NCBI GenBank assembly: GCA_018303505.1
Contig: JAGVYA010000017.1
Span: 1 to 38,535 of the forward strand
Source of the DNA: Candidatus Woesearchaeota archaeon
GTDB lineage: Archaea > Nanobdellota > Nanobdellia > Woesearchaeales > GW2011-AR4
Direction: 5' to 3'
Length of the DNA stretch: 38,535 nucleotides
Part shown: in pieces, positions 443-27,653 of the stretch
Numbering within the stretch: the first letter of the stretch is position 1
How the letters are laid out: each line of letters starts with the position of its first letter
Position numbers and translations under genes: made by a program
Notes under the pieces: model-generated
The model's database searches: none
What the model saw: only the letters and a program-made list of their open reading frames with translations
What the model was told of the DNA's origin: nothing

Positions 443-835
443 ATTAGAACTGGATTATTTAAAGGTTTTTGAAAAAATAGGAAGCATATTTCAAATTATC
501 AAAGGTAATAAAGCATTATTTGGCGCTTATCCTGCTGGGCTAATTGATGGTGATGGGTGCATAAAGATTAAGAACAATATCAAAGATAGAGTTATTCCAC
601 AATGTGTTGTAAAAATTGCAAGTGGTCGTCCTTTAGAAGACGTTAAAAATTTGATAGAGTTTCACATAAACTATAAAGTGCATTTTGAATTTAAAAATAT
701 AGGTAAAGGAGTAAATACTTGTTTTTATGTATCAAAAAAGAATATTGAATTTTTTAAAAATTACATTTATCCAAACATGGTAATGCCTTATAAGCTAAGT
801 AAGCTTGAGCATTTTTTCCAATTAAGCAGAAAAAC
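443..835 (+). pseudogene. LAGLIDADG homing-endonuclease-like remnant
   Basis: Frame encodes ...GAYPAGLIDGDGCIKIKNN...FYVSKKNIEFFKNYIYPNMVMPYKLSKLEHFFQLSRK; AGLIDGDG matches the LAGLIDADG motif; no ATG/GTG/TTG in frame just before the motif; ORF runs into the antisense of a tRNA. Confidence 0.6.
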
Positions 836-934
836 GGGCCTGCAGGGATTCGAACCCCGATTTCGGCTCTTATCATGAAATGACAAGATCAACCGGTCCG
901 AAGCCGATTGCACTGTCCATTATGCTACAGGCCC
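835..934 (-). tRNA. tRNA-Arg(TCG) with ~27 nt noncanonical intron in the variable loop
   Basis: Acceptor GGGCCTG/CAGGCCC, D-arm GCAT..GTGC, anticodon arm ATCGG-CTTCGGA-CCGGT, T-arm CGGGG-TTCGAAT-CCCTG; insert forms BHB: CGGTT/AGCCG with 3-nt bulges GAT and AAA and inner stem CTTGTCAT/ATGATAAG. Confidence 0.85.
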
Positions 935-4785: not shown

Positions 4786-4931
4786 GCGGGGGTAGCGAAG
4801 TCTGGCCAAACGCGCAGGACTTAAGACTCCATAATGGAACACCCATGCTAAATGGGATAAGTTATCCTGTTCCTTAGTGGATCCGAGATTTAGTCAAGCT
4901 AAACGGAAAGGTTCAAATCCCTTCCCCCGCA
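4786..4931 (+). tRNA. tRNA-Leu(TAA), intron-containing (splice sites not resolved)
   Basis: Acceptor GCGGGGG/CCCCCGC, D-loop with GG, anticodon loop CTTAAGA, T-loop TTCAAAT; 146 nt span vs ~85-90 nt expected mature length. Confidence 0.85.
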
Positions 4932-5217: not shown

Positions 5218-5302
5218 GCCTCTGTAGCATAGCAGCTATTGCGTTGCCTTGGTATAGTGTATAAAAAGGCAAAGGTCGGGGGTGCAATTCCCCTCAGAGG
5301 CT
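5218..5302 (+). tRNA. tRNA-Thr(GGT) with ~12 nt intron; aberrant D- and T-loops
   Basis: Acceptor GCCTCTG/CAGAGGC, anticodon stem TTGCC/GGCAA with loop TTGGTA[intron]A, T-stem GGGGG/CCCCT; TATA box ttttatatac upstream. Confidence 0.8.
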
Positions 5303-5360
5303 TACTTTAAAAATCAAAATTTTTAAATACTTTAATTAAAATCATTTAAAAGTGGAATTG

Positions 5361-6029
5361 ATGTCTAACAAAATTTTAGTTTCTTGTTTAATATTTATTA
5401 TCGCAGTTCTAGGCTGTTCCAAAACGCCCACAGGACAAGCTGTAGCCTCTGAAGCTAATATTTATGAAGATGCTCCGGCAATTGAACAGCAAGCTGGAAA
5501 CCAAACCATCGAAGAAATTACAGAGGAAAACCAAACAGAGGAGCAGGAGATACAAATCAAAACAGGAGAGGAATATTATGACGAGCTGGTGAATGACGAG
5601 TCGCCCAAAGAAAATATAAATATAGAAGAATTTAAGTTTAATCCCGAGAGCATTGTAAGCACTCAAAATAATATATCGCTTTCAATCGATAATATCAAGC
5701 ACGAAATAAAAAGTGAGTACTGGGGCAAGATAATTGAGATAACTGCTACAATACTGAATAATGGCAATAGAACTTTTAAGCCAAAACTTCTTGTTTTGCT
5801 TTACGATGAGAAAGACTTCAAAGAAGAATGGCTAAAGCCAAAAGCGGAAATACAGTTTGATATTGAGCAACTAAACGCAGGAGAGCATACAACAAGGCAG
5901 GCAATTGTAAGCATATCGTTTGATGATCTTTATCTGACTAAAAATTTCAAATTAGTGTTAGTTGATGCTGCAGATCCTGCAAATAAGCCCTTGGTAGTTG
6001 CTGAAACAAACTTTGAGCCGTTAAAGTAA
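5361..6029 (+). CDS. putative lipoprotein / secreted protein
   Basis: N-term MSNKILVSCLIFIIAVLGCSK lipobox-like; ATG at 5361. Confidence 0.65.
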   Translation: MSNKILVSCLIFIIAVLGCSKTPTGQAVASEANIYEDAPAIEQQAGNQTIEEITEENQTEEQEIQIKTGEEYYDELVNDESPKENINIEEFKFNPESIVSTQNNISLSIDNIKHEIKSEYWGKIIEITATILNNGNRTFKPKLLVLLYDEKDFKEEWLKPKAEIQFDIEQLNAGEHTTRQAIVSISFDDLYLTKNFKLVLVDAADPANKPLVVAETNFEPLK

Positions 6030-6030
6030 A

Positions 6031-6234
6031 ATGTCAGAAATTTTCCACCAGTTTCTAACTGATGGCTGAAAGCCACTCTCTTTGGCACATATGGAAAATT
6101 TATGAGCATGCTCAAGAACCACGAATCACGTTTGCGATAAGCAACATGTCGGTAAATGCTTTGCATTTCCGATCATGCTCGCAAATCTTCGATTTGCGAC
6201 ATTCCACCAATCTTTGACTGGTGGTTCTTGACAT
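6031..6234. repeat. Family B double-hairpin element (B1), with nested copy B2 at 6146-6202
   Basis: ATGTC-AGAAATTTTCCA..TGGAAAATTTAT-GAGCATGCTC-AAGAACCAC..GTGGTTCTT-GACAT; B2: ATGTC-GGTAAATGC-TTT-GCATTTCC-GATCATGCTC-GCAAATC-TTC-GATTTGC-GACAT. Confidence 0.85.
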
Positions 6235-6235
6235 A

Positions 6236-6904
6236 TTAAGAAGGAACAACATCTGCGTCTGTTACACTATTGACAGCTAATTGCTCAAATTTATACGTTT
6301 TGCCTCCAGACTCTATCTTTAATGGAATTCCATAAAAGGTATCAACCCACAATATTCCTTTATTTGTTTCAATTTTCCAAGTGTTTCTGCTGTTAATTAC
6401 TTCTTCACCAACCTTCTCAGCTGAAGTAACATCTATCCAGTCAAATACAGTTGATATGTAGGCAGTTGCATAGCTCAAATCTGCTTTCTTTCCCTTATAG
6501 GCGCAATATGCTGCCGTACAGTAAGATTGTGCTGTTTTAGCAACCTTATCAATAAAAATAGCATCATAAGAGCCTGGCTGGTCCAAGGTTTTTATTTCAA
6601 GCGATGGCTTGTACTTTATTTTATTCCCCTTGATATAAAACTCATGAAAGTTACTTCCAGTTTCAGGCCCTCTGTATTTATAGTAAATGCTGCTTACCTT
6701 GGTCTTGTGCTTGTTTAGTAATTCCTTGACATCTGCTGAAATCTCTGCTGTTGATTGGGTTGTTTCTGCCTGTGTTTTAGTTGATGTGCTAGATTCAGTC
6801 TTTGGCGTAATAGTTGTTTTTGGCGCTTCTTGTATAGGTGAGCAGGATAAGATAAAAATTAATGCAACTGTAAACAACAAAAATGTTAAGTATCTTTTAT
6901 TCAT
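6236..6904 (-). CDS. putative lipoprotein
   Basis: N-term MNKRYLTFLLFTVALIFILSCSP lipobox-like; 222 aa. Confidence 0.65.
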   Translation of the reverse strand: MNKRYLTFLLFTVALIFILSCSPIQEAPKTTITPKTESSTSTKTQAETTQSTAEISADVKELLNKHKTKVSSIYYKYRGPETGSNFHEFYIKGNKIKYKPSLEIKTLDQPGSYDAIFIDKVAKTAQSYCTAAYCAYKGKKADLSYATAYISTVFDWIDVTSAEKVGEEVINSRNTWKIETNKGILWVDTFYGIPLKIESGGKTYKFEQLAVNSVTDADVVPS

Positions 6905-7492: not shown

Positions 7493-7634
7493 ACATCAGA
7501 ATTCCACCATTCAGAAAGAATGGCGGTTTAATACTCAAAGCATGACTCAGTGGAATTCTGAGTGTGCTCAAAAATCACTGGATAACTTTGCGTAAGCAAC
7601 ATGTTCCAGTGATTGCAAAGGTGATTTTTGACAT
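7493..7634. repeat. Family B double-hairpin element (B4)
   Basis: ACATC-AGAATTCCAC..GTGGAATTCT-GAGTGTGCTC-AAAAATCAC..GTGATTTTT-GACAT. Confidence 0.85.
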
Positions 7635-8150: not shown

Positions 8151-8248
8151 GGGCCTGTGGTCTAGCGGTTATGACATCGCCTCGACACAACGGCAAAAAA
8201 CCATTTTCGATGCGGCGAAGATCACCAGTTCGAATCTGGTCAGGCCCA
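8151..8248 (+). tRNA. tRNA-Val(GAC) with ~23 nt canonical-position intron; C33
   Basis: Acceptor GGGCCTG/CAGGCCC, D-loop TAGCGGTTAT, anticodon stem TCGCC/GGCGA, T-arm ACCAG-TTCGAAT-CTGGT; BHB with H=TCGA/TCGA and bulges CAC and TGC. Confidence 0.85.
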
Positions 8249-22727: not shown

Positions 22728-22816
22728 TCATCGAAAATCTTCGATTTTCGGGTGTTCAAAAATGTAAAAGCATTTTTGACATTTGGAAATGCTCAAAAAT
22801 TCCAGATTTTTGACAT
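22728..22816. repeat. Family B-like element (B5, degenerate, with extra half unit)
   Basis: ATC-GAAAATC-TTC-GATTTTC-GGGTGTTC-AAAAATG..CATTTTT-GACAT, then ATGCTC-AAAAAT..ATTTTT-GACAT. Confidence 0.65.
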
Positions 22817-23442: not shown

Positions 23443-23540
23443 TTGTCAAAAACCATCAAGATTTATTGTAAATTGTTATGGTTTTTGAGCATGCTCGGAA
23501 ATCGTTGTAATTTATTTCTGTAACTTGCGATTTCCGACAT
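23443..23540. repeat. Family B double-hairpin element (B6)
   Basis: TTGTC-AAAAACCAT..ATGGTTTTT-GAGCATGCTC-GGAAATCG..CGATTTCC-GACAT. Confidence 0.85.
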
Positions 23541-23545
23541 GTGAA

Positions 23546-23765
23546 AACAAAAATTCCAACAACAACGCAGGGTTCGAACACGGGTTTTCTTGGTGAAAAC
23601 CCTATTCGCAAAGGATTTTTCCCCACTTCGTATGGAAAAATCCTCTGCACTCAATTCTCACCCAGACGAATGCGAGTGAGCTTTGAGATGAGCGAGCGAG
23701 AGACGAACTCTCGCATTTCACACGAACTCGCTCACATTTCGCTGTTGGAATTTTTGCTGGAAGTT
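23546..23765. repeat. large multi-branched palindromic element including Family C core (C3)
   Basis: CAAAAATTCCAACA...TGTTGGAATTTTTG closing stem; inner GGGTTTTC/GAAAACCC, AGGATTTTTCC/GGAAAAATCCT, GCGAGAG/CTCTCGC. Confidence 0.75.
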
Positions 23766-24477: not shown

Positions 24478-24597
24478 CGTCAAAAACCACAGGTCATAGA
24501 CATGGTGGCAGTTGCTTATCGCAAACTATCTGCATGGTTTTTGAGCGTGCTCGAAAATCGTAACTATTCACTATAAAATTTGCGATTTTCGACACAT
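24478..24597. repeat. Family B double-hairpin element (B7), enclosed by CCGAAAACTTA/TAAGTTTTCGG
   Basis: GTC-AAAAACCA..TGGTTTTT-GAGCGTGCTC-GAAAATCG..CGATTTTC-GACA. Confidence 0.85.
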
Positions 24598-27350: not shown

Positions 27351-27653
27351 AATCCGTTGCTTCGCAACATGTCGATAAATTCCAAAGGAATTTTCGATCA
27401 CACTCGCAAATCTTCGATTTGCGATGAATTATTGTGCTCGTCGTTGCTCTTCTGCCATTGAGCAACTCCTCGCCCATTTATTCATTATTTCAATGAATAA
27501 TTTCGAGGCGAAAAATTATTGAGTTGCGTGCGACCGACTTGTAAGCGAGTTCGGTGAGATAAGCGAGCGGGTGAATGAGCGAGCGAGAGGCGAGCTCTCG
27601 CATCTACCCGAGCTTTCGCATTCGACTGCTCACTCGCATCTCGACGGGTTGAA
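27351..27653. repeat. composite repeat: Family A (A7) containing Family B insert (27369-27426) and Family C core (~27520-27640)
   Basis: AATCCGTTGCTTCGCAACA | TGTCG..GCGATG | AATTATTGTGCTCG ... GAGCGAGCGAGAGGCGAGCTCTCGCATCTACCCG. Confidence 0.8.

Follow-up and report, generated by a model that had tools for sequence, protein, structure and literature searches.

Two convergent genes of a Candidatus Woesearchaeota archaeon are separated by little more than a pair of long hairpins, and the question raised by this locus is what these hairpins are and how they came to be there. The window analysed here is a stretch of 38,535 nucleotides (contig JAGVYA010000017.1 of assembly GCA_018303505.1). The sequence ATGTC...GACAT at 6031-6234, called B1, begins 1 nt past the stop codon of the gene at 5352-6029(+) and ends 1 nt ahead of the stop codon of the gene at 6236-6904(-), filling the gap of this convergent pair just as the first-pass annotation had described it, and the further copies which that annotation had seen in the window do exist, two of them in degenerate form (Table 1). 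Dozens of copies are present in the genome as a whole (1.3 Mb, 88% complete). Our analysis shows that they belong to an element family which is real and mobile.

B1 itself is a composite, made of a 147-nt main element and a second complete element of 55 nt lying within the loop of the right hairpin. The nesting is deduced from the element at 7494, where the loop GCAACATGTTCC is uninterrupted, whereas B1 reads GCAACA[TGTC...GACA]TTCC. In the 7494 element the final A doubles as the A of the downstream ATG.

Table 1. Copies of the element and their parts in the window (positions are those of the whole stretch).
Feature	Position	Strand	Remarks
B1, entire insertion, TGTC...GACA	6032..6233	+	B-to-A orientation; 5' target AAAA; orthologous gap in relatives ~10-55 nt
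B1, left-end-like hairpin of class B (CAGAAA...), TGTC...GAGCA	6032..6108	+	bulged G; from fold
B1, central decamer GAGCATGCTC	6104..6113	.	abutment point of both hairpins; from adjoining-hairpin test
B1, right-end-like hairpin of class A (CAAGAACCAC...GTGGTTCTTG), TGCTC...GACA	6109..6233	+	broken by nested element
Nested 55-nt element in loop of B1 right hairpin	6147..6201	+	target AACA
Second element, left foot mutated to CATC	7494..7633	+	between two abutting CBS-domain genes
Degenerate element, GGTGTT-centre type	22730..22781	+	
Further A-class half unit	22790-22815		beside the 22730 element
Canonical element	23444..23539	-	A hairpin 23444-23491, B hairpin 23492-23539; minus-strand 5' target ACA
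Near-canonical element, CGTC foot, GAGCGTGCTC centre	24478..24594	-	homologous empty site in L060
Degenerate element akin to the nested one (TGTCGATAAATTCC...GATTTGCGATG)	27370..27426	+	target ACA

The unit is gene-less, about 50-150 bases long, and has the composition TGTC-hairpin B-GAGCATGCTC-hairpin A-GACA, which can be written out as TGT - C..stem..G - AGCATGCT - C..stem..G - ACA. Folding gives an alternative drawing, in which each half reads TGTC...GA(g)CA with one bulged G and the two hairpins meet in the middle of the centre, between GAGCA and TGCTC. A search with the two-hairpin grammar over 340 kb of the own genome returned 10 sites scoring at least 12 of 16, while three shuffles of the same sequence returned none; paired stems thus exceed chance, and the pattern search with shuffled control that had been proposed as a check speaks for the family. 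In 336 kb of sequence chosen independently of the pattern, all eight GAGCRYGCTC decamers adjoin a hairpin of at least 6 bp (four on both sides, four on one side), as against 0.4% (both sides) and 11% (one side) of random anchors in the same test. The reversed-pattern control gave no match in any genome scanned.

The earlier description of conserved feet, with a shape that is kept while the sequence changes, is upheld by the collected copies. Its further statement that the stems vary freely applies to the inner pairs, which vary and covary, but not to the outer 6 bp, which fall into two fixed classes. Among 79 distinct oriented elements, these outer six pairs read CAARAA in class A (the sixth rarely C) and CRRAAW in class B. 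The elements were detected in part by their outer pairs, and evidence on the stems is therefore drawn from the inner pairs alone. From pair 7 inward several pair types occur at each position, pairing through pair 9 is kept in 92-97% (B) and 74-96% (A), and compensatory double changes are found at 11 of the 19 pairs of one B class. The foot C pairs with G, the stem begins with RR, the tail is GAGCA and the loops range from 3 to over 60 nt.

It had also been noted that each half is an inverted copy of the other. This does not describe the family, as most elements consist of two different hairpins and have a polarity. The hairpin classes are B+A in 80 of 107 elements, B/B in 24 and A/A in 3, where random pairing would give 52 heterotypic elements and the maximum of 5000 shuffles was 70, the loci having mostly been fetched with a half-unit pattern that constrains one partner alone. 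Heterotypy is hence a real tendency, and as a strict rule it was rejected in view of the 24 B/B and 3 A/A elements. Also rejected was the idea that orphan half units are the ends of a larger autonomous element, since none flanked a gene as expected; most orphans are partners with mutated feet or centre variants. A subfamily with a TAT foot and a GGAATGCT centre is present in the own genome at L008 7458-7508 and at L012 6362-6411 and 12436-12484.

Joining the flanks of each element across and seeking the joined sequence in relatives yielded gapless empty junctions for 25 oriented elements, 22 of which are distinct. At all 22 distinct sites the gain is exactly TGTC...GACA, with no duplication of the target and no loss. 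These empty sites in relatives prove insertion, and they mean that the copies are dispensable. For B1, the orthologous convergent pair is found in six relatives with the short gap given in Table 1. The CBS-domain genes around the 7494 element abut directly in many relatives, and among the genomes seen the site is occupied only in the own genome (G000) and in G011. The element at L119 5478 has entered the centre of another element (GAG^CATGCTC), and its boundaries are unambiguous for this reason. The four-hairpin array arising from this element-in-element insertion spans L119 5437-5611; the contig that holds it is binned as Omnitrophica. In several genomes a dispersed repeat, GTTGTCCGTTCGTAATA/AGCAAAAGACAT, is occupied by the element at one constant position, while other genomes have the repeat without it (flanks of L003, L027, L088, L122, L162 and L281); this is either a hot target or an instance of co-amplification.

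The insertions are oriented with respect to their target. With hairpin B placed on the left, the 5' flank follows TTRAHA^ (T-6 68%, T-5 71%, R 73%, A-3 91%, A-1 93%), the H position being rarely G, and the 3' flank of oriented elements is nearly random. A.A is present in the 5' flank of 69 of 80 oriented elements; it is confined to the B side in 63 and to the A side in 4 (p about 1e-14). These counts cover the oriented B-A elements, since the 24 B/B elements could not be oriented. The empty sites already hold this motif (A-3 in 20 of 22 and A-1 in 19 of 22), and TTRAHA is therefore a preference in the target that does not belong to the element itself. The element ends in GACA, which fits the RAHA consensus, so that the two predicted cut sites, RAHA^TGTC and GACA^, resemble each other, and each is a full or near complement of the foot TGTC. 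Clean insertion beside a one-sided short target suggests that the elements move as single-stranded DNA.

Transposons of the IS200/IS605 type have been reported to insert without duplication 3' of a short target, a tetranucleotide which flanks the left end, and to carry a hairpin at each end with a guide 5' of the hairpin (PMC6006769, PMC7290912). In the family studied here, the one-end target, the absence of duplication, the different end hairpins and the C-TTTA-G loops shared with the loci of resident IS200-type (Y1) transposases point to a similar single-strand mechanism operating in trans. Among hairpins with four-nt loops, the apical loop C-TTTA-G accounts for 8 of 53 in the elements (p 7e-11) and for 15 of 140 in the vicinity of Y1 genes (p 2e-15), as against 6 of ~2435 in the background, and it is confined to a minority of elements. 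On the target-bearing strand, the loop CTTNAG is found in 16 A and 13 B hairpins and its complement CTNAAG in 4 and 2 (CTTAAG, a palindrome, enters both counts), which indicates that the two ends of this minority of elements agree in strand sense, as do those of IS200/IS605.

Taken with the insertion data, these features make it probable that the family consists of non-autonomous transposable elements without genes, each functioning as the two ends of an IS200/IS605 transposon would if fused together. The left end would be hairpin B (TGTC-CRRAAW...-GAGCA) and the right end hairpin A (TGCTC-CAARAA...-GACA). A Y1-type HUH enzyme acting in trans might bind both hairpins on one DNA strand and make its cuts 3' of RAHA at the left end and 3' of GACA at the right end; the TGTC foot would serve as the guide, with GACA as its complement and the target RAHA as a degenerate form of that complement, and the single-stranded piece would then be joined 3' of a new RAHA site. 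Under such a mechanism recognition of the hairpin would rest mainly on its shape, leaving the inner stem letters to drift, and the feet would be constrained by their double use as guide and cut site. Any gain to the host is probably small, the insertions lasting where they are harmless.

While the insertions are shown, the enzyme and the guide role of TGTC are inferred. Y1_Tnp genes are present in 19 of 36 genomes of the family, and none was detected in the element-rich genomes G000 (the own genome), G012, G010, G019, G001, G017 and G013. The first reading had looked towards a linked RAYT-type or other Y1 enzyme, and this is not what we find, as none of the 39 Y1 matches examined (L173-L192, L283-L301) is flanked by TGTC-B / A-GACA ends and the seven genomes just named are rich in elements. 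The number of Y1 genes bears no relation to the number of elements (rho -0.08, p 0.63), and an all-against-all comparison of the ORFs near the 140-odd element loci gave no recurrent neighbour; with unflanked Y1 matches and unrelated counts, a linked mobilising gene was rejected. Although the end palindromes share the C-TTTA-G loop with the Y1 loci, no autonomous parent with these ends was found among the 39 matches, which counts against the proposal of fused IS200/IS605 ends. In a separate observation, a half unit lies at L295 1691-1712 (G096:C112), within or next to a Y1 transposase gene which matches in two separate pieces.

Among known systems, the PATEs (palindrome-associated transposable elements), which are IS200/IS605 derivatives (PMC3119063, PMC7290912), resemble the elements in being gene-less and dispersed, with near-terminal palindromes and no target duplication, and both are presumably moved in trans. 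Some PATEs of Haloquadratum are as short as 52 bp of fused ends (PMC3119063, PMC7290912). The end palindromes, the missing duplication and the one-end target of PATEs are all found here. However, PATEs have no terminal inverted repeat, whereas in our elements the palindromes reach the extreme ends and TGTC/GACA form a 4-bp inverted repeat. Such a repeat is absent from IS200/IS605 elements as well, and this too stands against the model of fused ends. Furthermore, unlike in PATEs, the hairpins abut without a core, no parent transposon was found, the inner stem letters are highly variable while the feet are fixed, and the host is DPANN rather than haloarchaeal. Each of PATEs, CGTC-tagged REPs and SMR-A has at least one defining feature that the family lacks, and the family is no RAYT-borne REPIN.

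A different mobiliser is a serious though minor possibility, namely a single-strand transposase which has escaped recognition and is no detectable Y1 protein, or a domesticated host enzyme, moving a shape-selected family widespread in DPANN; the elements would then be an archaeal counterpart of the REP system with machinery of their own. A related and doubtful explanation is that the family is the archaeal counterpart of the bacterial CGTC/TGTC-tagged REPs or of the Haloquadratum SMR-A, moved by a non-Y1 enzyme not yet known. The lack of detected Y1 genes in several element-rich genomes agrees with it, and the CGTC-tagged REPs share with our elements the outer foot (TGTC being a recorded CGTC variant), the predominance of head-to-head dimers, short stems with complementary changes and the lack of a dedicated, linked transposase (PMC3733652). 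However, these REPs, surveyed in bacterial phyla, have an unpaired tag, a stem beginning with AT, a CCA tail and loops of 4-5 nt (PMC3733652), whereas here the foot C is paired, the tail and the wide range of loop lengths differ and the partners are unlike. As for SMR-A of Haloquadratum walsbyi, it is a repeat of ~110 bp with inverted ends, no duplication, no enzyme known and insertion in other mobile repeats (PMC3119063), as in our family, but its copies are nearly identical, while ours diverge strongly with pairing kept, and the text consulted reports for it no one-sided target motif, a preference which is Y1 behaviour.

It is very improbable that the elements are REPs or REPINs in the strict sense, that is, paired inverted REPs mobilised by a dedicated RAYT (TnpA-REP). 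What stood of the resemblance to REPINs proposed in the first-pass annotation is a mobile, dispersed and mainly extragenic double inverted hairpin with conserved feet, a likeness that extends to BIMEs; what did not is carriage by a RAYT, because the foot is TGTC and not GTAG/GTRG, no Y1 match is flanked by units, the two ends differ and insertion is polar, and the class TnpA-REP was not found in archaea by a survey (PMC6006769). Conservation of the stem, which the first-pass annotation took to set known REPs apart, is no distinction, as the stems of REPs likewise differ from one family to another, with complementary changes, the GTAG/CGTC foot being retained (PMC3733652). A structured RNA (small RNA, terminator or mRNA-end stabiliser) selected for its RNA shape would explain the covarying stems, the GNRA-like loops such as GGCT-GAAA-AGCC and TTGC-GTAA-GCAA, and the position of B1 between two stop codons. 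Yet the folding energy has no consistent strand preference (p 0.10 for full elements, and the mid-size B class favours the opposite strand), Rfam gives no match to the elements, and the sites are empty in relatives, the copies being dispensable. Gaps between convergent genes are not enriched either (they hold 12 of 72 elements and make up 36 of 260 background gaps), so the setting of B1 is not a general preference. The earlier suggestion of a mobile or structured-RNA family therefore survives in its first half, through the 22 distinct empty sites, and the RNA reading is very improbable; a single-strand role at the level of DNA fits the data better, and it is likely that some copies are transcribed. 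Chance palindromes, which a window with 36% G+C and numerous short hairpins might supply, have practically no probability and are refuted by zero matches in shuffled and reversed controls and by the clean empty sites.

Turning from these alternatives to the extent of the family, of 292 genomes sampled from the order, 51 hold exact matches to the strict half pattern, with zero matches throughout for the reversed control, and all 19 other genomes of the own genus that were scanned carry the element. A scan of GTDB gave at least 117 stretches, nearly all from Woesearchaeota and some from Pacearchaeota, Nanoarchaeota and Aenigmatarchaeota; among the matches listed, one contig is binned as an Omnitrophica MAG and one as a Melainabacteria MAG. 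Named genomes with the same repeat are mostly Candidatus Woesearchaeota. Carriage by viruses was rejected, the viral contig collection having given no element match, and a plasmid search with one element gave no match. In the G016 subfamily with the centre AGCACTCGAAAACC (L230 9482-9525, L231 13460, L245 14183, L246 501 and 7531, L247 2548, L255 17673, L259 14277) the copies are nearly identical and more homogeneous, which suggests a more recent spread.

Surveys of tagged REPs and of TnpA-Y1 have reported no REP-type repeats or RAYTs in archaea (PMC3733652, PMC6006769), and the mobiliser is not known for CGTC-tagged REPs and small mobile repeats either. Since the insertion sites of the present family give polarity, exact ends and a one-sided target, the question of the enzyme is open to direct testing: both the cut sites (RAHA^TGTC and GACA^) and the strand are predicted explicitly. 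The family also offers a clear example from nature of DNA under selection for its shape and feet, and not for the sequence of its stems.

Another dispersed repeat, whose feet (GAGTGCAGAGGA ... CCTTTGCGAATAG) are conserved and whose stems vary between copies yet stay paired, is present in the window at about 23595-23665, and also near L060 2800, L147 2760, L163 5710 and L230 15400; TGTC...GACA elements were found inserted within it. The window further contains four tRNA genes by Rfam, at 835-934(-), 4786-4931(+), 5218-5302(+) and 8151-8248(+), where ARAGORN reports none, and their lengths of up to 146 nt suggest the presence of introns.
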